NCBI RefSeq assembly: GCF_011801145.1
Contig: NZ_CP046172.1
Location: 4,216,001-4,280,000 of the forward strand
Direction of reading: 5' to 3'
Length of the DNA stretch: 64,000 nucleotides
Source: Nocardia arthritidis
GTDB lineage: Bacteria > Actinomycetota > Actinomycetes > Mycobacteriales > Mycobacteriaceae
Shown: positions 1,298 to 20,375 of the stretch, one piece after another
Layout of the letters: every line of letters begins with the position of its first letter
Position numbering within the stretch: the first letter of the stretch is position 1
Notes under the pieces: generated by a model
The model's database searches: none
Told to the model about the DNA's origin: nothing
What the model saw: the letters and a program-made list of their open reading frames with translations, nothing else
Program-made: the position numbers and the translations under genes

Positions 1298-1954
1298 CTA
1301 CGATCCGGCGACGAGCCCGTTCACGTGCGCGTACACCACGGCCTGCACCCGATCTCGCAGCCCGAGCTTCGACAGTATCCGGGAGACATGGGTTTTGACG
1401 GTCTCCTCGCTCACCCGCAGCGTCAGCGCGATCTCCGCATTGGCTTTGCCGTCGGCGAGCAGCAGCAACACCTCGCGTTCCCGCGCGGTGAGCCGTTGCA
1501 GTTCAACGGGTTCCCGGCGCGGCGCCAGGCTGCCCGCGAACCGGTCGATCAGCCGTTTGGTCACCGAGGGGTCGATCAGCGCATCACCCCGGGCGACGAC
1601 CCGAAGTGCCGCGACGAGTTCGGCGGTCGGCATGCTTTTCAACAGGAATCCGCTGGCACCGGCCCGCAGCGCGCGGTAGACGTAGTCGTCGAGATCGTAG
1701 GTGGTGAGCACCACGACCTTGGCGAACGCGCCGGGCACCGCCAGGATCGCCTCCGCGGCGCCGAGCCCGTCGAGTTTCGGCATGCGGACGTCGAGTAGCA
1801 CGATATCCGGCTGTAGCCGAAGGGTTTCCGCGACCGCGGTGCGCCCGTCCCCGGCCTCGCCGACGCAGCACAGATCGGGCTGGGTCTGCAGCGCGAGCCG
1901 CAGCCCGGACCGGAAGGTCGCGTGATCGTCGGCCAGCAGCACCCGCACCGTCAC
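1298..1954 (-). CDS. LuxR/NarL-family response regulator
   Basis: The protein has 218 residues starting with GTG. The N-terminal receiver domain has acidic residues D9/D10, phospho-acceptor Asp55 (IVLLDVRMPK), Thr84 and Lys106. The C-terminal LuxR helix-turn-helix at about 155-215 includes LTAREREVLLLLADG and VSEETVKTHVSRILSKLGL. Its start overlaps the stop of the histidine kinase gene by 4 bases (GTGA), so the two are translationally coupled. It should bind DNA after phosphorylation by that kinase. The targets are not shown by the sequence. The divergently transcribed block from 3304 is the nearest candidate. Confidence 0.93.
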   Translation of the reverse strand: MTVRVLLADDHATFRSGLRLALQTQPDLCCVGEAGDGRTAVAETLRLQPDIVLLDVRMPKLDGLGAAEAILAVPGAFAKVVVLTTYDLDDYVYRALRAGASGFLLKSMPTAELVAALRVVARGDALIDPSVTKRLIDRFAGSLAPRREPVELQRLTAREREVLLLLADGKANAEIALTLRVSEETVKTHVSRILSKLGLRDRVQAVVYAHVNGLVAGS

Positions 1955-3195
1955 GACAGCACCTCGCCCGCAACCGGTTTCGCGAGCGGAAAGGTGACGG
2001 CCGTGCGCCAGCTGCGGCGCGCCGGATCCGGCCCGTGGTCGACGCGGCCGTCGAAAAGTACCGCGCGCCGCCGGATTCCGGCCAGCCCGCGATGGGTGAC
2101 CGGATCGGCGGCCGGAGCCGGATCCGGCGGCAGCGGGTTCTCGCTGGATACGGTCAGCCCGGCGGCGTCGCGCTCGATGCGCAGGTGCACCGAACCGTCG
2201 CCGTGCCGAAGGGCATTGGTCAGCATCTCCTGGGTGATGCGGTAGAGGGCGATGTCCAGGGATCCGGGCAGCGGCGCGAAATGCGCACCGGTGACATCCA
2301 TTCGGACCCGCAGCCCGGCGGCGCGCACCCCGTCGATGAGCTCGTCCAGATTGGCGAGGCCGGGTTGGCGCATGCCGTCGCCGTCGTTGCCGTGCAGCAG
2401 GTCGAGCATGCGGCGTAGGTCGTCCATCGCGGCGTGGCTGGAACTTTCGACCTCGTCGAGCGCCTTGGCCAGCACCAGCGTGCCGTTTCGTGTTGCGGCC
2501 GAGCAGTTTCGCGCGCCGGACTCGCCTTGCGCCGCGGCCAGGCCGAGCCGCGCGGCGCCCGCGTGCACCCCGATCGCGCTGACGTGGTGGGAGATCATAT
2601 CGTGCAGGTCGAGCGCGATGGCGCGGCGCTCGTCGAGCACGGCCTCCGCGATGGCCTGCTGCGCGTCGCGACGATCGTTGTCGGCCTTGCGATCCAGCTC
2701 CGCGAGGTAGGCGCGGCGCGCGGTGGTGTACCGGCCGACCAGCCACGGCAATATCGAGCTCTTGACACCGACGATGGACAGATGGGCGAGATCGAAATCG
2801 CCGTTGTGCATGCGGGTCAGGATCGCGCCCGCGAACAGCGTTGCCATCGCGGCGATTCCGGGCCAGCCGCGCAGCCAGGCGCCCACGCGGTAGCCCGCGA
2901 TCATCACCCCCGCGTCGTTGCCGCCGTAGCGGGCAGGGGTGTCGTACAACAGGATTCCCGCGGTCAGCATTACCGCGGCGTGCGCCACCGCGATCCGCCC
3001 CGACCAGCGCGCGGGCGCGGCGAGCGCGAGATCTGCGACGATAACCGCGATGCAAACCAACCAGTACGCCACCGAGCCGGATGCCGCGGGAAACCGCAGC
3101 AGCAGCTGCGCCAGATCCGCGAAAAGCGCGCCGAGCGCCACCAATTGCGATTGGCGCGCCAGCGACCTGACGACGTCACCGCCCGGACCCCACAT
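1951..3195 (-). CDS. Sensor histidine kinase (HisKA_3 type), partner of the 1298 regulator
   Basis: The protein has 414 residues. Four or five hydrophobic segments between about 18 and 155 form the membrane sensor part, with no large extracellular domain, so it probably senses within or at the membrane. The HisKA_3 dimerisation motif holds the phospho-acceptor His198 (RRAIALDLHDM). The ATPase domain has the N-box QEMLTNALRHG (Asn327) and a glycine box THRGLAGI near 368-374. It is the NarX/DesK/LiaS class of kinase. ATG at 3195 is preceded by a weak GAAG. It is divergent from the envelope gene block at 3304, with about 108 bases between. Confidence 0.92.
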   Translation of the reverse strand: MWGPGGDVVRSLARQSQLVALGALFADLAQLLLRFPAASGSVAYWLVCIAVIVADLALAAPARWSGRIAVAHAAVMLTAGILLYDTPARYGGNDAGVMIAGYRVGAWLRGWPGIAAMATLFAGAILTRMHNGDFDLAHLSIVGVKSSILPWLVGRYTTARRAYLAELDRKADNDRRDAQQAIAEAVLDERRAIALDLHDMISHHVSAIGVHAGAARLGLAAAQGESGARNCSAATRNGTLVLAKALDEVESSSHAAMDDLRRMLDLLHGNDGDGMRQPGLANLDELIDGVRAAGLRVRMDVTGAHFAPLPGSLDIALYRITQEMLTNALRHGDGSVHLRIERDAAGLTVSSENPLPPDPAPAADPVTHRGLAGIRRRAVLFDGRVDHGPDPARRSWRTAVTFPLAKPVAGEVLS

Positions 3196-3303: not shown

Positions 3304-4821
3304 ATGCCACTCCTAGCGTTGTGCACGATGATGAACACGATGTGCGCCCGATTGCGGGATATCGGCGCGATTCTGCTGTGCGCGGGCCTGATCGCGCTCG
3401 GCGGCGCGGGCCCGGCGGTCGCGGACAGCCCGTCGTCGGGTGGTGACGTGCAGGTCGCGCAGACCTTCGACGGGCGCGAGCTCACCGTGATCCTGCGCCG
3501 GATCACCTCGGTGCCAGGACCGTTGCGGGTGGATGTGGTGAGCCACGACGGCGACCGAGCCGGGCGACTGACGATCAGCGCGCTGTTCACCGGCGGCGCA
3601 CCGGGTTCGGCGCCGCGGGGAACGGTGGATCTGCCCGGCACGCCCGGCATGTACGGCACCACGCTGCCGGTGGATCGGGCAGGCCCATGGGAACTCGCGA
3701 TCGATGACGGTACGCGGGTGGCGCGCATCCCGTTCGTCGCGAGCCCGCAGGTGACTTCGCCGCCGGAGCGCTACGTCTACGGCGGATTCGCCGCCGCCGG
3801 AATCTGTCTCGTCGCGACGGTGGTGGTCGCCACCCGGTCCCGGCGCGGCGGATGGGCGCTGCTCCCGGGTGCCGGGCTGGTCGCAGGCATCGCGGTGGCG
3901 GTGACCGCGGCGGTGCTCTCGGTGATTTTCCCGCTGCCGCCGCAGCCCGGAGTGCAACTGGATCCGACGGTCGGCAATGTCACCGACCCGTATGCGAGGT
4001 CGCAGCCGCCGATCGTGAACTTCTCCAGGCCGCCGGTGAATCTGACCGTCGCACAACGAACTTCACCGGACGGCGCGGAGCTGACGATCGAATTGTCCGA
4101 TGCCGCGACCGGTTATCCGGTGGACGATCTGATCGTGCACGACAGCGCGCTGATGCATCTGTTGCTGATCTCGCCGTCGGGCCGCCTTTCGCACGTACAT
4201 CCGATCCGGATCGCGCCCGGTGTGTTCGAGGTGGGGCTGCCCGCACCGGAACCGGGCCACTACGCGGTGGCCGCCGAACTGTCCCGCCGCGGCGGCGGCG
4301 TACAGCAGGTCCGCGCCGCGGCCGGACTGGATATCGCCGGCGGCGCCGCCGTCCCGGTGACGAATCCCGCGGGCGCGGGGCGGCGTTCGCTCGGCGATGC
4401 ACCGGTCGATGTCGCGGTGACCGACGCGGTGGCGGGCGCGCCGGTCACCATCACCGCGACCTTCGGCGACCGCGCCGAGCTGCAACCGTGGCTCGGCATG
4501 ACCGGGCACATGATCGTCGCGGGTCCGCTCGACATCGCCGAACCCGCGGGCGTGGCAGCCGAACGAGCGCAATTGCTGGCACACGTCCATTCGATGAACG
4601 GCGGTTCCGGTTCGATGATCTACAACATCGCACCGGCGAACGGCGACAGCCCGCCCGACGAGACCGTCGCGAATCTCGGTCCGGCCGTGCCGTTCACCTA
4701 CCGGTTCCCGCTGCCGGGCCGGTACCGGGTGTGGGTCCAGGCCGAGCGCGGCTACCGGGTGCTGACGGTGCCGATCACCGTCGATATTCGCGCGTCAACC
4801 GAAAATGGGGGTACACCATGA
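3304..4821 (+). CDS. Membrane-anchored envelope protein with two His-rich YtkA-like modules, possibly metal-binding
   Basis: The protein has up to 505 residues; an alternative start is ATG 3328. A signal peptide lies at about 17-40. An extracellular domain (45-155) follows, then two membrane helices (about 157-176 and 184-209), then two related extracellular modules. Module one (240-345) has HLLLIS from His285 and SHVHP (His297, His299). Module two (365-495) has GHMIV (His402) and AHVHS (His427, His429). The spaced H...HVH pattern resembles secreted proteins found beside copper-handling genes. Metal binding is inferred from motif only. The stop overlaps the next start (ATGA), so it is co-translated with the YtkA-like protein. 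No database family can be assigned with certainty. Confidence 0.72.
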   Translation: MPLLALCTMMNTMCARLRDIGAILLCAGLIALGGAGPAVADSPSSGGDVQVAQTFDGRELTVILRRITSVPGPLRVDVVSHDGDRAGRLTISALFTGGAPGSAPRGTVDLPGTPGMYGTTLPVDRAGPWELAIDDGTRVARIPFVASPQVTSPPERYVYGGFAAAGICLVATVVVATRSRRGGWALLPGAGLVAGIAVAVTAAVLSVIFPLPPQPGVQLDPTVGNVTDPYARSQPPIVNFSRPPVNLTVAQRTSPDGAELTIELSDAATGYPVDDLIVHDSALMHLLLISPSGRLSHVHPIRIAPGVFEVGLPAPEPGHYAVAAELSRRGGGVQQVRAAAGLDIAGGAAVPVTNPAGAGRRSLGDAPVDVAVTDAVAGAPVTITATFGDRAELQPWLGMTGHMIVAGPLDIAEPAGVAAERAQLLAHVHSMNGGSGSMIYNIAPANGDSPPDETVANLGPAVPFTYRFPLPGRYRVWVQAERGYRVLTVPITVDIRASTENGGTP

Positions 4822-5252
4822 CAATTCGTCAGCCGCCGGTGCGACGCCGGTCCGCCGTCCTCGTCGTCGTGGCCGCGCTGATCCTCGCCGTCGCCGCGCT
4901 GGTCTGGTCGCTGTGGCCGTCGAGCGGCGGGCCGACGGTGCTCACCTCGGCGAGCGCGCAGCACACCGTTGTGCTGACCGCGGCCGACTTGCGGGTCGGC
5001 ACAACCGCATTCGACCTCGAGATCAGCGATGCGCACGGCGCACCCGCAACCCTGGACCAGGTGCGGGTGGAGCCGGTGATGGCGATGATGGGCCACGCCA
5101 TCGGCGCGGTCACCGCGAAACCGGTGGGCCCGGGACGCTTCCGGGCCGACGGTATCGAGCTGACGATGGCCGGTCAGTGGCAGATCACCGTCACCCTCGT
5201 CGACCGGTCCGGCATCGACCGGGTGATCGTGCCGGTCACGGTCGGCAACTGA
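4818..5252 (+). CDS. YtkA-like membrane-anchored protein
   Basis: The 144-residue protein has one N-terminal membrane anchor (13-32) and a single extracytoplasmic beta-sandwich-like domain. The motif MAMMGHAIGAV (Met88, Met90, Met91, His93) and the later MAGQWQITVTLVD match the YtkA/FixH-like family (PF13115). In that family 'MpxMgH' and 'maGxW' are the hallmarks. Such proteins often sit in copper or cytochrome oxidase neighbourhoods. It starts inside the stop of the upstream gene (4-base overlap). The following gene is 25 bases away with GAAAGG before its start. Confidence 0.75.
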   Translation: MTIRQPPVRRRSAVLVVVAALILAVAALVWSLWPSSGGPTVLTSASAQHTVVLTAADLRVGTTAFDLEISDAHGAPATLDQVRVEPVMAMMGHAIGAVTAKPVGPGRFRADGIELTMAGQWQITVTLVDRSGIDRVIVPVTVGN

Positions 5253-5277
5253 AATACCTTGTGAGAAAGGACTATTC

Positions 5278-6429
5278 ATGGACATAGCGGCCCATCCGGG
5301 CGGGGTTGCCCGGCCGCGGTCCGCCGTCGCGGCACTGCGGATAGACGCCGAACGCGCCGGCGCGCTGACGGTGCTGCTCGGCACCGTGGTTTCGCTGATC
5401 GGGCTGAGCTGGGATGTGCAGTGGCACAACGATGTCGGCCCCGACACCTTCTTCACGCTGCCGCACCTGTTCCTGTACTCCGGGAGCGCGATCGCCGGAT
5501 TCGCCAGCCTGGCGATGGTGCTGCGGGCCACCGCGGCCCAGCGCGCCGACCGCGACATCACTGGATTCCGCGGCGGCGTCCCGGTCCGGGTATTCGGCGG
5601 AATGTTCACCGCCCCACTGGGTTACATGGTGGCGGGTGCGGGGGCCGCGTCGTTCCTGCTGTACGGCCTGCTCGATCTCGCCTGGCATTCCATCTACGGT
5701 TTCGACGCGGTACTGAACTCGCCGCCGCACATCGCGCTGTTCCTCTCCATGTCGATCACCATGGCGGGCAGCCTGATCATCTTCGCGTCCGCGCGTGAGC
5801 AGCTGTGGGGGCGAACGGGTTTCGTGCTCGCGGTGCCGATCCTGATGACGTTCACCCCGATCACCGTGCTGGCGTTCGCGGCGTTGCCGTTGCCGGTCGA
5901 TCCGCGGACGCTGGGCACCATCTTTTTCGTCGTGCTGTTGCTGATCCTGTCCGCGGGTGTGCTGCGGTTGCCGTACGGCGCGGTGCTCGTCGCGGTGGCA
6001 CTGGGCGCGATGCAGGGGGTGCTGTGGTGGTTTTCCCCTTGGGCGGCACGGGTTTACGCGGATTGGGTCGGCCTGCCGCTGCGTGACGGGCTCGTCGCGC
6101 ACCCACCGTCGATTCCGAGCGCTATCCCGGTGTGCCTGATCATCGCCGCAGTGGTGGTCGACGGAATCCGCTGGCAGGCGCTGCGGCGCGGCTGGCCCAC
6201 CCGCTGGCTGCCCGCGTTGATGGGCGCAGTGGGCGGTCTGGTGATCGGTGTGACGTTCCCGATGCAGCATGTGCTCCTCTGGCATCTCGCGACGCCGTCG
6301 GTCTCGCGCCTGGTGACCATTGGCGTGTGGGGTATCGCGATCGGCGCGCTCGCCGGGTTCCTCGGCCAGCGCATCGCGCTGCTGCTGCGCTACGACGAAC
6401 TGGTCGCGCTGTCCGGAAAGGGACGCTGA
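5278..6429 (+). CDS. Multi-spanning membrane protein with repeated WH...D...PH motif
   Basis: The 383-residue protein has about nine or ten predicted membrane helices. A conserved-looking pattern occurs twice: Trp49-His50, Asp56, Pro62-His63 (QWHNDVGPDTFFTLPHL) and Trp136-His137, Asp143, Pro150-His151 (AWHSIYGFDAVLNSPPHI). Paired histidines in helices suggest metal or heme coordination, but no known oxidase or transporter signature is present. It lies between a YtkA-like protein and a secreted protein, and the stop is 1 base from the next ATG. The function is unknown; a metal-linked role is an inference from the histidines and neighbours. Confidence 0.75.
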   Translation: MDIAAHPGGVARPRSAVAALRIDAERAGALTVLLGTVVSLIGLSWDVQWHNDVGPDTFFTLPHLFLYSGSAIAGFASLAMVLRATAAQRADRDITGFRGGVPVRVFGGMFTAPLGYMVAGAGAASFLLYGLLDLAWHSIYGFDAVLNSPPHIALFLSMSITMAGSLIIFASAREQLWGRTGFVLAVPILMTFTPITVLAFAALPLPVDPRTLGTIFFVVLLLILSAGVLRLPYGAVLVAVALGAMQGVLWWFSPWAARVYADWVGLPLRDGLVAHPPSIPSAIPVCLIIAAVVVDGIRWQALRRGWPTRWLPALMGAVGGLVIGVTFPMQHVLLWHLATPSVSRLVTIGVWGIAIGALAGFLGQRIALLLRYDELVALSGKGR

Positions 6430-6430
6430 C

Positions 6431-6982
6431 ATGCGCGTATTACGCACTCTCGCAGCGATTTTCGGTGTCACACTGCTGACGCTGCTGCTCCCCGCGACGC
6501 CCGCATCGGCGGTCACCCCGGTGACCGTCGTGCACACCGAGCACGTCAAGGCCGGGCCGTACGACGTCACCCTCGGCTTCTCGGTATGGCCGCTGCGTGC
6601 GATGAAATCGCTGGACTTCACCTTCACCCCGGACGGCGGAATCGCCGGGAAATCCGGGAAACTCGTGCTGGACGGTCCCGGCTTCAAGGGCGGACACGAG
6701 GTGGAGCCGCTGGTCCGCCATCCCCGCGAGCGCGACGATTGGGGGCTGGACGTTCGCGCGTTCGACGCGCCGGGCACCTACCGCATCGGATTCGAGATCG
6801 ACGGGCCGGCCGGGCACGGCGCGGGCGCGCTCGAGAATCTGACGGTCCTGGATCAGCCCGGTCCGCCGATCGCCGCCAGCTGGGTGGTATGCGCGCTGCC
6901 GGTGCTCGGGCTGATCGCCCTGTTCGCCATCGCGTGGCGACGGGTGCGGCCGGGCCGGATGGCCGCGGCGGCGCCGCTGTAG
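6431..6982 (+). CDS. Secreted protein with C-terminal membrane anchor
   Basis: The protein has 183 residues. A signal peptide (1-28, ending TPASA) precedes a beta-rich ectodomain, and a single helix (about 148-170) followed by RRVRPGR forms a stop-transfer anchor. The topology, Ig-like domain outside plus C-terminal anchor, resembles CopC/YcnI-like envelope proteins, but no diagnostic copper motif was found. ATG 6431 follows the previous stop by one base, so it is the last gene of the four-gene unit 3304-6982. The function is unassigned. Confidence 0.7.
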   Translation: MRVLRTLAAIFGVTLLTLLLPATPASAVTPVTVVHTEHVKAGPYDVTLGFSVWPLRAMKSLDFTFTPDGGIAGKSGKLVLDGPGFKGGHEVEPLVRHPRERDDWGLDVRAFDAPGTYRIGFEIDGPAGHGAGALENLTVLDQPGPPIAASWVVCALPVLGLIALFAIAWRRVRPGRMAAAAPL

Positions 6983-7024: not shown

Positions 7025-8173
7025 ATGTGCCATGGTGTCCCAATGTTCGGTACGCGATTGACAACGATGAGATGGCGTTCCGAATCGGGGCGGTTGGTTA
7101 CGGTGATGGCCGTCGGATTCGGATTGACGGTGGTGATCACCCGGCTGTATTTGATGGCATCCGGGTATCCGAAGATCGGCGGCAGCACCTATCACATCGC
7201 GCACGCGCTGTTCGGCGGGTTGCTGCTGGTGATCGCCTGCCTGGTATTCCTGTTGTTCACGGGCCGGGCGGCACTGAATACCGCGGCGGTGCTGTCCGGT
7301 GTCGGGCTGGGCCTGTTCATCGACGAGGTCGGCAAATTCATCACCGCGGACAACGATTATTTCTTCCCGCTCGCCGCGCCCATTATTTATCTGGCCTTTC
7401 TGCTCATCGTGCTGGTCGCCCGGTACGCGGCCAGGAAACGGGTGCAGGCGCCGTCGGTGATACTCGGCGAGGTCACCGCGCAGGTGGGCGAGGAGGTCGG
7501 CTCCAGGATCGGCCCGCAGCGCCGGGCGAACCTGCTGGATCGGCTGAATCGGTTGGACCGCAGCACCTTCGGGCCCGACATGATCGAATTGTGTGATGCG
7601 CTCACCGATTACCTCAACACCACCCACGAGGACAACCGTTCCGCGCTGAGCACCAGGATCGCCCACACCGCGGTGCGGCTCGAGGCGGCGCTGCTGCCGC
7701 TGCCGTTCCTGCGGGTCGCGCTGATCACGGTGATGCTCGGCCATTCCGTGTGGACGCTGGTGCGGTTGGTGGCCGCGGTGGTGGTGATCTCCGGCTGGCA
7801 TTCGCCGTGGCGGCAACTCGATCACATGCTCGACCCGTCGCAGCACCACGGCTGGAAATCCCTTGTCGGTCTGTCGATCGCCGCGGTGGCCGAGTTGATA
7901 GTCGCGATCGGGTACGCGGCCGGTTCGGTGACGTGGCTGCGCGGCCGCGCGGAAATCGGTGTGCGCGTGGGAATCTGGTCCACCGTTCTCTCGCTGACCG
8001 TGGTGAATGTGCTGGCCAGTTACTTCAGCCAATTCCTCACCGTATTCACCGCGATCGCCGAGGCGGTGCTGCTCTGGCTGCTGATCCGGTATCGCACCAG
8101 AGCCGGGCTGACCCGGCCGACCGGTACTGGACAGGTCATGGACCAACCGGCTGCCACGTCGTCCGGAAGCTGA
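7025..8173 (+). CDS. Polytopic membrane protein of unknown function
   Basis: Up to 382 residues; ATG 7043 is an equally good start. About eight membrane helices flank a cytoplasmic segment at 150-225. Recognisable stretches are [19 protein letters not shown] and [18 protein letters not shown]. They look strongly constrained (acidic plus histidine residues next to helices) and I have the impression of a widespread uncharacterised bacterial family, but I cannot name it. It lies 42 bases after the secreted protein at 6431, so it could be part of the same transcript. Confidence 0.65.
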
Positions 8174-14427: not shown

Positions 14428-15105
14428 CCATACCTTCTCTCGGGTCGGTTCGGGGTTACGTCCCCACCGCCGGGCCACCGATTCGGCTCGGCCCGCGCCC
14501 CATTATCGGGGACGGCGGCGCGGAGTTCAGTGGTGGGCACAGGATCCGGGTCCTCGGTACAGGGCCGGAAGTGACCGAGGTGAAGGATCTGTTCGACATC
14601 AGTGGGTCGGGTCACAGTCGGGGGTGATAGCGCGTGTATTGCCGGAATGCGGCAACCGCTGGTCAGGGGTCGGCGTGCGGGTGACGAGGTGTCGGCTCGG
14701 ATGGGCCTGTGCACAACATCTTTCGGTGCGGTCCTGGGATGATCTCGCGAAACTTCGCAATATGTATGGCATGTCGGTCGATACGTCGAGCGCGATCGAC
14801 AACCCTGCTAGGGTGATCGAATCGTCGGGTTCCGGGTTGCTGGCGGGACTCCGCTGTGGGTGGTGGGCGGTGCTGGAATCGCCTGTCCCGCAGGTACTGT
14901 GCGGTCCGCCGCCGGTCACCCGCCAGGTGCTCGGCATTCGACGCGGACCGTATCCGGCCTGGTCGGCCGCGGTCGGTGTGGCGAGGAAGGTGGGACGAAA
15001 CTCTGTGGCAGCTGGCTGTCCACAGCGCCGGAGCGGGCCGACACCGGTTGTGGCGTGGTCAGGTTTTCCGGACGATCCCCGAGCTGGTCGACGACGAGAG
15101 AACTG
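14428..15105. promoter_or_regulatory. 678-bp non-coding region upstream of the conservon
   Basis: No convincing gene was found. Open frames that span it have Arg/Pro/Ser-rich translations with no domain. An inverted repeat ACCCT-gct-AGGGT sits at 14802-14814, inside an AT-richer stretch (14755-14830), and is a candidate operator or promoter part. The length is unusual for this compact window. It must contain the TetR and conservon promoters and may hold a long leader. Confidence 0.35.
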
Positions 15106-16515
15106 ATGAATTTGGATATCGCCGTGGTACTTCCGTGGATCATCGCCGCCGTCCTGGTACTCGCCGCGGCGGGGTACGCGGTACGAACCGGGCACGCGAA
15201 GCAGGAGCAGATCACCGCGCTGACACGGGAACAGCGGGCCCGCGAGGACGCACTGGAACATTTCGCCGTCAGCACGCTACCCGCCGTGACCGAGGCGGTG
15301 CGCCGCTTCGAACCGGCGCCGCGGGTGGAACTTCCCGCCGGACTGGAGGATTCGCGGTTCGCCCAATACCTGCGCTGGATCGCCGAGCGCGGCGCCGAGG
15401 ACCTGCGCGCGATTCAGGCCGAAACCAGGGAGCGCACCAACCGTGAGGCCGACGAGCGCGCGCAGCAGGCGATCCACGCCGCGGAGGAGGCGACCCGCGC
15501 CAAGGTGACCGCGAGCGCCCGCGAGGCCACCGCCGCCGCGGTGCGCTCCTTCGGCACCTCGGTGGTGAGCCTCGGCGCCGACGTCGGCCAGGTGGTGAGC
15601 CAGGCGCTGCGCGAACACCGCGACGACGAGGTGTACGGCACGCTGACCCGCATCGACCACACCGTTCAGCAGATGATCCGCCAGGCCCAGTCCTATGTGA
15701 TCGTCTCCGGCGGCCTGCCCGGCCGCCGCTGGCCGGTTCAGTCGCTGACCGATGTGGTCGGCGGCGCCGTCGGCCGCGTCCGCGACTATCTGCGGGTGCG
15801 GCCGAACCAACTCGACCGGATGGTCATCAGCCGCGCCGTCGAACCGCTGGTGCACACCCTGGCCACGCTGCTCGACAACGCGCTGCGCTATTCCCCGCCA
15901 ACGTCTTTCGTCGATGTGAGCTTCCAGGAGGGGCATCACGGCGTCACCGTCATCATCGACGACGCCGGCGTCAGGATGAACGCCGAGCAGATGGAGGAGG
16001 CCAGGCAGGTGCTCGCCAACGAGCGCCCGGTCGACATCCACCAGCTCGGGCCGTCCCCGAAGGTCGGCTTCCCCGGCATCGCCGCGCTGGCCCGCCGCTA
16101 CGGCTTCACCGTCTACATCGACGGCCCCAACGCCTACGGCGGTATGCGCGCCATGGTCTACATCCCGGAGGCACTACTTGTCACGCCGCAGGTGGCACCG
16201 GCGCCGGCCGTGCCGCAGCAGCAGAGCGAACCGCAGCATCAGCCCGCACCCGTCCCCGCCGACGAGATCGCACCGGAGCCCGCTTCGGTGACCGTGAGCG
16301 AACAGCCAATGGAGGAGCCACAATTCGCGCTGCACGAGATCACCAACGGCGGACTACCGAAGCGCAGGCGCCGAGATGTCGCGCCTGCCTTGCGGGTTGA
16401 CGGTCCACGCACCGAACCGGCGCTGGCGCGACCGGATATCGCCGCCGCCTGGCAGACCGGATCCAAGAGCGGCCGCGCCGCCGCTTCCGATCACAGCGAA
16501 GGGATGGATTCTTGA
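15106..16515 (+). CDS. cvnA: Conservon sensor histidine-kinase-like protein (CvnA type)
   Basis: 469 residues from ATG 15106 (GAGAG seven bases upstream). One N-terminal helix (6-24) is followed by a long coiled coil rich in Ala/Glu/Arg (about 85-175). A degenerate dimerisation helix has His185 (RIDHTVQQM), and the GHKL ATPase domain has the N-box LLDNALRYSP (Asn258). The C-terminal ~120 residues are Pro/Gln-rich and disordered. This is the nitrate-sensor-like CvnA of Streptomyces conservons, which is thought to form a membrane complex with the next three products, resembling a bacterial G-protein receptor system. Its stop overlaps the following start by one base. Confidence 0.88.
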   Translation: MNLDIAVVLPWIIAAVLVLAAAGYAVRTGHAKQEQITALTREQRAREDALEHFAVSTLPAVTEAVRRFEPAPRVELPAGLEDSRFAQYLRWIAERGAEDLRAIQAETRERTNREADERAQQAIHAAEEATRAKVTASAREATAAAVRSFGTSVVSLGADVGQVVSQALREHRDDEVYGTLTRIDHTVQQMIRQAQSYVIVSGGLPGRRWPVQSLTDVVGGAVGRVRDYLRVRPNQLDRMVISRAVEPLVHTLATLLDNALRYSPPTSFVDVSFQEGHHGVTVIIDDAGVRMNAEQMEEARQVLANERPVDIHQLGPSPKVGFPGIAALARRYGFTVYIDGPNAYGGMRAMVYIPEALLVTPQVAPAPAVPQQQSEPQHQPAPVPADEIAPEPASVTVSEQPMEEPQFALHEITNGGLPKRRRRDVAPALRVDGPRTEPALARPDIAAAWQTGSKSGRAAASDHSEGMDS

Positions 16516-16931
16516 TGGGCACACCGGCAACCGACAGCGGCAACAAACTGGCCTGGCTACTAGAGGATCTCGAAATTCCCGGGGTCCGCTTCGCGGTCCT
16601 GCTCTCCGAGGACGGCCTGCGGATCGCGCATTCGGCCGGCGTCGCCAAGGACGACGCGGAACGGTTCGCGGCCGCCGCGTCGGGGCTGCGTTCGCTCGGT
16701 AAGGCGCTCGGCGAATTCTGTGGCGGCAGCGGAAATTCCGTGCGGCAGAACATGACCGAATACGACGAGGGCATGATCCTGATCACCGCGGCCGGTGAGG
16801 GCGCGCTGCTCGGCGTCTCCACCACCACCGATATCGACGTGGGCCTCATCGCGCACCGGATGAACGAACTGGCCGGGCGCGTGGGCCGGGAGCTCGGCGC
16901 CGAACCGCGCAGGCGAGTCGACCTGCGATGA
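16515..16931 (+). CDS. cvnB: Roadblock/LC7 domain protein (CvnB type)
   Basis: 138 residues. The roadblock/LC7 fold is recognised from WLLEDLEIPGVRFAVLLSEDGLRIAHS, split here as the helix WLLEDLEIPGV followed by the strand pair FAVLLSEDGLRI, then ILITAAGEGALLGVST and IAHRMNELAGRVG. In conservons this protein is the proposed regulator of the GTPase, analogous to MglB. ATG 16515 uses the A of the upstream TGA, and the stop overlaps the DUF742 start by 4 bases, so stoichiometric coupled translation is expected. Confidence 0.92.
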   Translation: MGTPATDSGNKLAWLLEDLEIPGVRFAVLLSEDGLRIAHSAGVAKDDAERFAAAASGLRSLGKALGEFCGGSGNSVRQNMTEYDEGMILITAAGEGALLGVSTTTDIDVGLIAHRMNELAGRVGRELGAEPRRRVDLR

Positions 16932-17275
16932 GCCGGCCACGTCGCGACCCTGACCTGGTGCGCGCCTATGTGCGCACCGGGGGACGCTCTCGGGCCACCC
17001 GTGACCTCGACCTGGTCACGCTGGTGGTCGCCGCCAAGGATCCCGCGCCGGGGGCGAGGCCCGACGCGCGCCGGGTCATGGACGTGGTCCGCCGCGGCTC
17101 GCTGTCCATCGCGGAAATCGCCGCGTACCTCGATCTGCCGCCCTCGGTGGTAAAGATCGTCGCGTCGGATCTGCTGGACAGCGGACATTTGAACTCACCG
17201 GCACCGGCCGATGCGCTGCCGGATCTGGCCCTCTTGGAGGAGGTACTGAATGGGCTCCGTGCTCTCGCCGTCTGA
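16928..17275 (+). CDS. cvnC: DUF742 protein (CvnC type)
   Basis: 115 residues. It matches DUF742 (PF05331): DPDLVRAYVRTGGR at the N-terminus, then a winged-helix-like part, GSLSIAEIAAYLDLPPSVVKIVASDLLDSGHL (the core is IAEIAAYLDLPPSVVKI). It lies between roadblock and GTPase genes as in all conservons. The role is unknown; its helix-turn-helix appearance has led to suggestions of DNA or protein docking. It overlaps the GTPase gene by 26 bases. Confidence 0.92.
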   Translation: MSRPRRDPDLVRAYVRTGGRSRATRDLDLVTLVVAAKDPAPGARPDARRVMDVVRRGSLSIAEIAAYLDLPPSVVKIVASDLLDSGHLNSPAPADALPDLALLEEVLNGLRALAV

Positions 17276-17882
17276 TGTCGATCCGGGTGGGTGGCGGTCG
17301 GCGGAGCGGGTGAACTACGTCGCCGAGACGGTGACCCGGTCGGTGAAGTTGTTGGTGGCGGGCAATTTCGGTGTCGGCAAGACCACCTTCGTCGGCAGCG
17401 TTTCGGAGATCAAGCCGCTGCGCACCGAGGAGACCATCACCGAGGCCAGCGTCGGCGTCGACGATATGGCGGGTCTGCCCGGCAAGTCGACCACGACGGT
17501 CGCAATGGATTTCGGTCGCATCACGCTGAATCCCGAACTGGCGCTGTATCTTTTCGGCACGCCGGGGCAGCAGCGGTTCGTGCCGCTGTGGGAGGAACTG
17601 GCCCGCGGCGCGCTCGGCGCGCTGGTGCTGGTCGACACCCGCCGCATCGAGAAGGCCGACGAGGTGCTCTCGGTGCTGGAGGAGCGCGGCGTGCCGTATT
17701 CGGTGGCGGTGAACCAATTCGAGGGCGCCAAACAGTTTCCGCTCGACGAGGTGCGCGATGCGCTCGATCTCACCCCCGACACCCCGCTGACCATGCTGGA
17801 CGCCCGCGACCGCGGCACCTGTCTGCGCTCGCTGATCACGCTCGTCGAATTCCTGTTCCGTAGAATGGAAGGACGTCTTTGA
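17250..17882 (+). CDS. cvnD: Conservon small GTPase (CvnD type)
   Basis: 210 residues. The P-loop is GNFGVGKTTF (Lys44). Switch II is LFGTPGQQRF (103-110), with Gln in place as in Ras/MglA-like proteins. The usual NKxD base-specificity motif is replaced by VNQFEG, typical of CvnD proteins. It should bind GTP and relay the state of the histidine-kinase/roadblock complex. Start ATG 17250 lies inside the DUF742 frame; its stop overlaps the P450 TTG start by 4 bases. Confidence 0.92.
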   Translation: MGSVLSPSDVDPGGWRSAERVNYVAETVTRSVKLLVAGNFGVGKTTFVGSVSEIKPLRTEETITEASVGVDDMAGLPGKSTTTVAMDFGRITLNPELALYLFGTPGQQRFVPLWEELARGALGALVLVDTRRIEKADEVLSVLEERGVPYSVAVNQFEGAKQFPLDEVRDALDLTPDTPLTMLDARDRGTCLRSLITLVEFLFRRMEGRL

Positions 17883-19150
17883 CCCCGTCGCAGCGACTAT
17901 CCACCGCCGGGTCCACCGAACAAGCCCGCTGCCCGGTCGCGCACGGGTCGCCGGTGGACACCGACGGACCAAGGGTCGCACTGTATTCCGAGGAGTTCGC
18001 CGCCGATCCGCACCGCGCCTACCGCGAAATGCGCCGGAAATTCGGCTCATTGGTGCCGGTGGATCTCTCACCCGGCGTACCGGCGACCCTGGTGATCGGC
18101 TACCACACCGCGGTGCGCATCCTCAACGATCCGGACCACTTTCCGGCCGACCCGCGCATCTGGCAGCGCGAGATACCGGGTGAGTGCCCGATTCTGCCGA
18201 TGCTGGAGTGGCGCCCGAACGCATTGCGCAGCGCGGGCCTCGAACATGCGCGCTACCGGCAGGCCAATATCACGGCCATCGGCGAAATCGATTTGCACGC
18301 GCTGCATTCCACCGTGGAACGGATCGCGATCCCGCTGATCAACAGTTTCTGCGGCGACGGCGTCGCCGATCTGATCAGCCAGTACGCCTTCCCGCTCACC
18401 TTCGCCGCGTTGAACGAAATGCTCGGCTGCCCGGCCGATATCGGTCAGCAGGTGGCCACCGGCATGGCCGCGATGTTCGAGGGCGTCAACGCCGACAAGG
18501 GCAACCAGATGCTCACCGACGCGCTGTACGAGCTGGTGATGCTGAAGCGGCGGGAACCGGGTGACGACGTCACCTCGCGGTTGATCGCCCACCACGCCGG
18601 GCTCGGCGACGAGGAGATGATCCATCAGCTGGTGACGCTCTACGGCGCGGGTATCGAACCGCAGCAGAACCTGATCGTGAACACCCTGCTGCTGATGCTC
18701 ACCGACGATCGGTTCGCCGGAAATGTGTTGGGCGGCAGCCTGTCCACCCGCGACGCGCTGGACGAGGTGCTGTTCAACGACCCGCCGATGGCCAACTACT
18801 GCGTCTCGTATCCGAAGCAGCCGATCCTCATCGACGAGGTGTGGCTGCCCGCGCATCAGCCGGTGGTGATCAGCATGACCGGCTGCAACAACGATCCGGC
18901 GATCGACGCGGGCGGCTACACCGACAACCGCTCCCATCTCGCGTGGAGCGTCGGCCCGCACGCCTGCCCGGCCCGCTCGGTGGCCTATCTGGTGGTGCAG
19001 GACGCCATCGACCAATTGCTCGACGCACTACCCGAAATGCGTCTGTCCGTACGGCCCGAGCACCTCACCTGGCGGCCAGGGCCCTTCCATCGCGCTCTGG
19101 TGTCCCTACCGGTCACCTTCCCGAAATCCCCTCCGCTCAACGTGTATTAA
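17879..19150 (+). CDS. Atypical cytochrome P450 lacking the ExxR arginine (CYP157-like, CvnE type)
   Basis: 423 residues from TTG 17879, which overlaps the GTPase stop (TTGA). The heme ligand is Cys363 in [11 protein letters not shown]. The K-helix signature is Glu296-Val-Leu-Phe299, so the otherwise invariant Arg is Phe. The I-helix reads [10 protein letters not shown] instead of AGxDT. Loss of ExxR is known for Streptomyces CYP157 enzymes encoded in conservons, which are paired with CYP154 genes, the same arrangement seen here. Membership of that group is an inference from motif and position. It ends 10 bases before the next P450 gene. Confidence 0.88.
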
Positions 19151-19160
19151 GGAGATTCCG

Positions 19161-20375
19161 ATGGATCAACAGCCCCTAGTCCTCGATCCCACCGGAACCG
19201 ATATCCAGGGCGAATCCGCGCGGATTCGCGAGCGCGGCCCCGTGACAAAGGTGGAATTGCCCGGCGGCGTACAGGCTTGGTCGGTCACCGATCAGGTGCT
19301 GTTGAAGCAGCTGCTGGTGGATCCGCGGGTGTCCAAGGACGCCAAACAGCACTGGCCTGCCTTCATCAACGGTGAAATCCCGCCCGACTGGCCGCTTTTC
19401 CTGTGGGTGGCGGTGAACAACATGTTCACCGCGTACGGCGCCGACCACCGGCGGCTGCGCAAACTGGTCGCCCCGGCGTTCACCGCGCGCCGCACCGAGG
19501 CGCTGCGGCCGCGGATCGTCGCGATCACCGAAGAACTCCTCGACGAGCTGGCCACACAGGACGGAATCGTCGATCTGCGTGAGGGTTTCGCGTATCCGCT
19601 GCCGATCCGGGTGATCAGCGAGCTGATGGGCGTGCCGGAGGCGCTGAATCCGGGGCTGCGCACATGCGTCGACGGCATCTTCGACACCACCCTCACCCCG
19701 GAGGAGTCGCAGGCCAATTACATGGAGATGTACCGGATTCTGGCCGAACTGGTCGCATTCCGCCGCGAACATCCCGGCGACGATATGACCAGCCTGCTGA
19801 TCTCGCACCGCGACGAGGACGACGGCTCACAGCTCACCGAGCAGGAACTGATCGACACACTATTGCTCGTCATCAGCGCCGGGCACGAGACCACGGTCAA
19901 CCTGCTCGATCAGGCTATCTTCGCGCTGCTCACCCGGCCCGAGCAGCGGGCGAGTCTGCTTGCGGGCCAAGTGGGTTGGTCCGATCTGGTGGAGGAATCG
20001 CTGCGTTTCGAGGCGCCGGTGGCGCATCTGCCGCTGCGCTACGCCGCCGACGATATCGAGCTGGACGGCGGCATAAACATCGCCAAGGGCGAACCGATCC
20101 TGGCGTCCTATGCGGCGGCGAACCGCGATCCGAAGGTACACGGCGCGACCGCCGACGAATTCGACGTGACCCGAGCGACCAAGGAGCACTTGGCCTTCGG
20201 CTACGGCGCCCATCACTGCCTGGGTGCGCCACTCGCCCGCCTGGAGGCCGAGGTGGCGCTGCCCGCCATCTTCCAGCGCTTCCCGAATATGCGGCTGGCG
20301 GCGGATATTTCGGAGCTCGGCACGGTGGCGAGCTTCATCTCCAACGGGCACCACCAGTTGCCGGTGACCCTGTAG
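19161..20375 (+). CDS. Cytochrome P450 (CYP154-like), canonical
   Basis: 404 residues. All signatures are present: I-helix AGHETT (240-245), ExxR at Glu279-Arg282, and heme loop [15 protein letters not shown] with Cys353. ATTAAGGAG lies just upstream of ATG 19161. It is the last gene of the conservon transcript, followed by a strong hairpin. CYP154 members in Streptomyces hydroxylate steroids or polyketide-like compounds; the substrate here is unknown. It needs ferredoxin and reductase partners, none of which are in this window. Confidence 0.93.

Follow-up and report, generated by a model that had tools for sequence, protein, structure and literature searches.

The present analysis concerns a 64,000-nucleotide stretch of the Nocardia arthritidis genome (assembly GCF_011801145.1, contig NZ_CP046172.1, forward-strand positions 4,216,001 to 4,280,000), hereafter the window, and within it a cluster of four genes, G1 to G4, that may encode a copper-handling system of the cell envelope. 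Its membrane protein, G3, distantly resembles PmoC/AmoC, a part of the enzymes oxidizing methane and ammonia. The genome is a single contig of 10.0 Mb. When the reading frames were re-read, all four genes were found on the forward strand within 3304-6982 (Table 1), as a preliminary description made from the letters of the stretch had laid them out, and the short spacings it gave were recovered as well: G1 and G2 overlap by 4 bases (G2 starts at 4818 and G1 ends at 4821), and gaps of 25 bases and 1 base separate G2 from G3 and G3 from G4, respectively. Judged by gene spacing alone, G1-G4 would be expressed as one transcript. The start codon of G1 is uncertain (3304, 3328 or 3331).

The sole Pfam family above cut-off among the four proteins was YtkA, in G2, with none assigned to G1 or G3. 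NCBIfam gave nothing above cut-off for G1, G2, G3 or G4, the best PHROGs match for G1, G3 and G4 was no better than E 0.021, and Pfam matched neither a CopC nor a CopD domain in any of the four proteins (E up to 1). A family with a non-metal role, which according to the preliminary description would have spoken against its proposal, was looked for in these Pfam, NCBIfam and PHROGs searches and none was assigned to the cluster proteins; no description of the G1-G4 cluster was recognized in the literature, searched within open-licence papers.

Table 1. Features of the four-gene cluster and the adjoining regulatory genes (positions in the window; pLDDT, predicted local distance difference test)
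Feature	Position	Strand	Basis
G1	3304..4821	+	Reading frame; 46-sequence alignment; AlphaFold2 model, mean pLDDT 85.3
G2, membrane-anchored YtkA-domain protein, motif MAMMGH	4818..5252	+	Pfam YtkA
G3, membrane protein, two PmoC-like sites	5278..6429	+	Predicted model, mean pLDDT 93.0; 63-sequence alignment
G3 site 1: D46, W49, H50, D56, T57, F59, T60, H63	5413..5466	+	Spacing as in PmoC CuC
G3 site 2: D133, W136, H137, D143, H151	5674..5730	+	Spacing as in PmoC CuD, Asp for Asn
G4, secreted domain with C-terminal hydrophobic anchor	6431..6982	+	29-sequence alignment
Histidine kinase (HisKA_3), N-terminal hydrophobic region	1951..3195	-	Pfam
Response regulator, receiver and LuxR-type helix-turn-helix	1298..1955	-	Pfam

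Conservation of the cluster

Scanning named genomes yielded 197 loci; 80 of them, carrying 23 genus names, were kept, and the window brings the total to 81. Regions L013-L030 were kept out of the 81-locus counts, several being duplicates of named loci; L028-L030 gave no match with our own G3 profile and were left out of the counts, and L026 and L027 were left out of one analysis. Conserved synteny, proposed in the preliminary description as a check, proved near-complete: the order G1-G2-G3-G4 on one strand was found in 79 of the 81 loci, and chance is excluded because so many loci hold all four genes in order. The order is incomplete in L033, where a metagenome-assembled genome yielded G3 and G4 alone, and in L098, whose stretch starts inside G2. 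G1 and G2 form a single reading frame in four loci (L065, L073, L092 and L097). The genes also co-occur, the identical 14 of 60 related genomes being marked by full-length G3 (E < 1e-80), G1 (E < 1e-90) and G4. Only strong matches were counted: some G3 match was present in 19 genomes and some G1 match in 26, and in each case 14 of them were retained. Lower-scoring G3 and G1 matches in further genomes are distant relatives or proteins sharing one module.

G3 has at least 717 homologues at E up to 0.001, and its branch is spread over Nocardia, Streptomyces, Lentzea, Amycolatopsis and other actinobacteria. Among the 120 G3 matches listed, all the named ones are hypothetical or uncharacterized, the closest named homologue there being a Nocardia panacis protein. 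Two records are peculiar. At L020 (G028:C13), the G3 homologue is broken by an in-frame TGA into two matches, which could reflect a decayed gene or a sequence error, and L090, titled Rhodococcus rhodnii, shares its neighbourhood families with Kibdelosporangium, Actinosynnema and Actinocrispum loci and is possibly a mislabelled or contaminated record.

Two conserved sites in the membrane protein G3

G3 comprises 383 amino acids (aa) with ten long helices in the model, which are probably transmembrane (TM). The Met/His motifs reported for the cluster are present in the sequence and conserved in the family alignments, and in G3 the conservation centres on two sites: D46/W49/H50/D56/H63 and D133/W136/H137/D143/H151 are invariant in 63 sequences, with strongly conserved aromatics around both. 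In the model, D46 and H50 close helix 1 and H63 opens helix 2, and in the same way D133 and H137 close helix 3 and H151 opens helix 4. Lys and Arg are absent from the two site loops (53-60 and 141-148), whereas three such residues lie in the loop joining helices 2 and 3, so that both sites probably face outward by the positive-inside rule. The D-x3-H motif occurs twice in all 206 G3-family sequences, and the exact x12 and x13 spacings are kept in 191 of these and in 62 of 62 close members. Both spacings were found in 94 of the 1929 called reading frames of the loci, and 93 of these 94 bear the G3 signature D-x2-W-H or W-x2-W-H.

These two sites recall those of PmoC, in which CuC is liganded by Asp156, His160 and His173 and CuD by Asn227, His231 and His245 (PMC12576850), CuD being the reported active site (PMC11194816). 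The CuC ligand set D-x3-H-x12-H is present in G3 as D46, H50 and H63, together with the W, the second Asp (D/E) and the T-x-F-T of the PmoC sequence. The second G3 site, D133-x3-H137-x13-H151, departs from the CuD set N-x3-H-x13-H, both His and the spacing being kept but Asn replaced by Asp in 206 of 206 family members. G3 thus shares with PmoC/AmoC (PF04896) two motifs that agree in order and in their x3/x12 and x3/x13 spacings, but differs in the Asp of its second site, in lying below the Pfam cut-off and in its greater length.

Remote similarity of G3 to PmoC/AmoC

One trace of a link was a distant G3 relative with a weak Pfam AmoC match (E 0.027). Compared by hhalign, the deep G3 family (24 sequences) and PmoC (42 sequences) scored 34.9 (E 1.1e-4 for one comparison, probability 56-57%) with both motifs in register, and a second deep set (52 nonredundant of the 206 sequences) scored 34.9 again. 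The controls remained lower: for the first set, the best of 200 column shuffles reached 23.5, the best of 100 reversed block shuffles 19.3 and the reversed alignment 14.3; for the second set, the best of 150 column shuffles reached 22.7 and the reversed alignment 11.1; and PmoC against 54 unrelated neighbour families reached at best 24.3. The distant G3 members alone scored 36.8, over the first motif only. When the AmoC model was run against 200 genomes of the order, six matches below threshold came up; of the two loci read among these six, L152 is a G3-family member aligned over AmoC positions 119-226 and L151 is not. These profile similarities suggest that G3 is a remote relative of PmoC/AmoC.

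Several observations weigh against this relationship. The close G3 branch alone scored only 25.2 against PmoC (E 0.0044, probability 8), hardly above the best control, and the link therefore leans on the distant members. The direct hhalign tool gave weaker values, with E 3.4e-4 and probability 38 in one comparison and E 0.0092 and probability 4.4 for the close branch. Pfam AmoC was found in one of 14 deep members, at best with 14.3 bits against a cut-off of 26.7, and was not among the 25 of 31 Pfam families shown for 63 close members; G3 itself had no Pfam AmoC match at E up to 10. Fifteen of the 206 family sequences deviate in the first spacing by one to two residues or in the second by three. 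Among the 54 control families, just five have at least three hydrophobic segments, and the PmoC set is narrow, consisting of one database neighbourhood and phage copies, with archaeal and actinobacterial sequences not included.

At the structural level, Foldseek gave no G3 match at E < 0.001. On a second look, ten of the 12 top rows were chains of particulate methane monooxygenase (pMMO) or ammonia monooxygenase (AMO), the A subunit wherever the chain was named; the best such row reached 3.0 A over 163 residues of the second half of G3. These PmoA rows are suggestive only, and PmoC chains were not among the 50 structural rows shown, with one chain per entry. As a candidate PmoA, the second half of G3 found no support by sequence, with a score of 10.4 against 20.3 for the best of 60 shuffles.

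No PmoA or PmoB, the partner subunits of the copper membrane monooxygenases (CuMMOs), was detected in the cluster. In the N. arthritidis genome, Pfam AMO gave no match at E <= 0.01 and Monooxygenase_B none at E <= 1, a search whose control matched nowhere. Weak Pfam AMO matches in two of 394 genomes of the class proved, when the sequences were read, to come from another membrane protein, which we take to be UPF0182-like. A PmoA scan of viral contigs gave nothing, and the retrieved flanks of phage pmoC contained no pmoA. Ordinary xmoCAB-type butane monooxygenases are known from actinobacteria and are distinct from the G3 cluster (PMC6215863). Because two PmoC features fail, namely the Asn at CuD and the Pfam cut-off, we do not file G3 as a CuMMO; it is better described as a putative PmoC-related copper membrane protein with YtkA-like partners of its own.

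Proposed extracytoplasmic partners G1, G2 and G4

G2 exceeds the Pfam YtkA gathering score (35 bits versus a cut-off of 25.9). Within its MAMMGH motif, Gly alone is invariant in 28 sequences, His is kept in at least 90% and the Met preceding Gly is often replaced. The 28-sequence profile matched PDB 9ll2, 'Copper resistance protein', at E 4.5e-8, an entry that the single G2 sequence did not match. YtkA domains are found in CtaK and, C-terminally, in the proposed copper importer YcnJ (PMC13344008; PMC9145763), which combines CopC, CopD and YtkA (PMC13344008). By likeness to CtaK, YcnJ and PDB 9ll2, G2 may bind copper. Unlike these YtkA proteins, it belongs to a four-gene cluster of fixed composition, in which the place of CopC/CopD is taken by a PmoC-like membrane protein.

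G4 has, by reading, a signal peptide and a C-terminal hydrophobic segment, and H35, E37 and H97 are invariant in its 29 sequences. Its profile resembles the YtkA domain of G2 (hhalign probability 67, E 5.1e-5, without a shuffled control), as parts of G1 also do. With PmoD/AmoD, G4 shares a secreted domain followed by one C-terminal TM helix, but PmoD has two strictly conserved Cys (PMC6189053), and G4 was ruled out as a PmoD by the absence of conserved Cys in the 29 sequences.

G1 begins with a signal peptide (the N-terminal helix in the model), followed by an extracytoplasmic beta domain (residues 49-146), two long helices (153-178 and 182-208) that are probably TM, and two more beta domains, which carry His/Met residues in the AlphaFold2 model. 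H285, H297-x-H299, M399-x2-H402 and H427-x-H429-x-M431 are invariant in 46 sequences. PmoB/AmoB likewise consists of a beta domain, two TM helices and a beta domain; G1 has this domain order, but no sequence or fold match to PmoB was found, and its His motifs lie in the C-terminal domains. The hhalign score (22.2 versus 20.9 for the best of 60 shuffles) left G1 unsupported as a PmoB, and the Foldseek rows shown contained generic immunoglobulin (Ig)/fibronectin type III folds alone.

Relatives of the G1 His/Met module (about residues 269-412) were found elsewhere in genomes, and four such places were inspected. A multicopper oxidase gene lies 97 bases from a module relative in the N. arthritidis genome (L239), and a heavy-metal P-type ATPase gene lies 45 bases from one in a related genome (L242); inspection by eye showed no copper gene next to the module relatives at L240 and L241, and a partial ATPase-like hydrolase lies some 7 kb away at L240. 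The relative at L239 (7592-10205), a 269 aa protein that is encoded downstream of the multicopper oxidase gene and has no Pfam family, represents an unannotated family of its own.

The membrane and YtkA-like parts are also found in one polypeptide. Fused relatives in other classes consist of a G3-like membrane domain, a domain resembling the G2 profile (probability 87, E 3.7e-6) and a hydrophobic segment. By eye this tail domain had looked like G4, which was rejected by comparison (probability 0.5 for G4 versus 87 for G2). A second widespread branch of the G3 family (L026, L027, L152 and P0241-P0360) occurs in Nocardia, Mycobacterium and other actinobacteria; its members are mostly near 490 aa, with a YtkA-like domain fused where read, and the named ones among the 120 listed are all hypothetical or uncharacterized.

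Copper as the probable metal

Homology and neighbouring genes point to copper as the metal of the cluster. Besides the genes next to the G1-module relatives, a heavy-metal ATPase occurs in the regions of the distant G3 relatives L028 and L030, and DUF305 near L028 and L027. The preliminary description had remarked that no known copper ATPase or oxidase is present; this applies to the neighbourhood of the cluster, the whole window not having been Pfam-scanned for such genes, and does not extend to the genome, which holds the multicopper oxidase elsewhere and two CopD matches outside the cluster. CopD was above cut-off in 55 of the 60 related genomes, including all 14 cluster carriers. Since carriers have CopD too, the cluster adds to the usual copper set, and the idea that it replaces CopD was rejected.

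Proposed function and alternatives

Taken together, the preferred reading, to which we lean by a little, is that the four proteins form a copper-handling complex outside the cytoplasm, built around a membrane core related to PmoC. Its computed basis comprises gene order, co-occurrence, ligand conservation and three profile similarities, of G3 to PmoC, of G2 to YtkA and of the G1 module to proteins with copper neighbours. The first four helices of G3 would hold two copper sites, each of one Asp and two His, at the outer face of the membrane, and G1, G2 and G4, as anchored YtkA-like or Ig-like domains, would bind copper via His/Met and pass it to G3 or take it from G3. Such a complex may capture, hold or relay surface copper for delivery to cuproproteins or for uptake, and the adjoining two-component system could regulate it in roughly half of the loci. 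Copper as the metal, the position of the sites on the outer face, the assembly of the proteins into one complex, the route by which copper is passed and the control by the two-component system are our inferences. The proposal of an undescribed envelope metal system made in the preliminary description is thus supported, the computed evidence pointing there with copper as the best-supported metal; a redox role, which it offered as the alternative, is conceivable.

Weighing against a copper-handling complex, the kinase/regulator pair is absent from about half of the loci; L028-L030 are weak G3 relatives (E 6.4e-7 to 7.6e-5) not recovered by our own G3 profile; in the neighbourhoods read around the fused relatives from other classes (L139 and L140 partly), no copper genes were seen by eye; and CopD occurs in genomes both with and without the cluster, which is accordingly not the sole copper route.

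A CuMMO-like enzyme, in which G3 would act as a catalytic oxygenase or oxidase at its PmoC-like sites and G1, G2 and G4 would load copper, much as pmo/amo operons are accompanied by PmoD, CopC and CopD, is the foremost alternative, which we consider unlikely. Both PmoC motifs with matching spacing, the conserved aromatics around the sites and the pMMO/AMO chains in ten of the 12 top structural rows are in its favour, and some pmo operons indeed hold PmoD, CopC and CopD (PMC6189053). Aldehyde and short-chain dehydrogenases among the neighbours could act on oxidized products, but these are large common families not present in all lineages. Moreover, the Asp of the second G3 site is nearer to CuC than to the active-site CuD (PMC11194816), and the oxygenase reading is lowered therefore. 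We regard as rather improbable the broader proposal that the G3 family constitutes a large unrecognized PmoC/AmoC branch acting as a copper-dependent oxygenase or oxidase through two Asp-His-His sites, possibly paired, without recognizable PmoA/PmoB and loaded by YtkA-like domains.

Alternatively, the cluster could be a copper importer that fulfils the role of CopC-CopD-YtkA (YcnJ) through an unrelated membrane component, which appears quite improbable. It has parts of the same kind, a membrane protein and extracytoplasmic domains including YtkA, which YcnJ also holds in a single polypeptide, as do the distant fused relatives, and a role of YcnJ is in print (PMC13344008). However, G1-G4 lack CopC and CopD domains, the latter occurring elsewhere in the same genomes, CopD replacement is contradicted by the 55 of 60 genomes, and no transport path was identified. 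Finally, Asp/His sites can hold metals other than copper, and the identity of the metal is drawn from homology and neighbours only; a system for zinc, iron or heme, or an envelope-stress system with structural His/Asp, is very unlikely given the PmoC similarity, YtkA and the copper neighbours of relatives of two different cluster components.

If the copper-handling complex with a PmoC-related core is confirmed, a common actinobacterial relative bearing both sites would serve as an outgroup and a simpler model for the PmoC sites, and an unannotated copper-handling system would exist in genera that include antibiotic producers. To our knowledge, the origin of the PmoC/AmoC copper sites is not settled, and the actinobacteria bearing the cluster are not generally known as methane or ammonia oxidizers.

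Regulators and neighbouring genes

The two-component system noted as divergent beside G1 was confirmed by Pfam (Table 1). The kinase and regulator are divergent from and adjacent to the cluster in 35 of the 81 loci, lie upstream in the direction of the cluster in five more (L073, L081, L083, L089 and L094) and are further off in L033. Of the 24 named Nocardia loci, 23 lack the pair, as do all three Mycobacteroides loci. In 13 Nocardia loci (L016-L018, L037, L040, L044, L046, L047, L050, L055, L066, L071 and L082), corresponding to ten distinct records because L016-L018 repeat L066, L071 and L082, the cluster directly precedes a ribosomal-protein operon, and none of the ten named loci has the kinase/regulator pair. 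Among the shared neighbours, an aldehyde dehydrogenase occurs at 14 loci within Nocardia, and 18 loci from several genera have a member of one short-chain dehydrogenase family. In the window, G4 is followed on the same strand by a gene for a 382 aa membrane protein (7025-8173) with no Pfam family above cut-off, of a kind not seen among the listed shared neighbours, and at 14860-20000 we tentatively recognize genes for a sensor kinase, a roadblock protein and a small GTPase, resembling a conservon, with cytochrome P450 genes after them.

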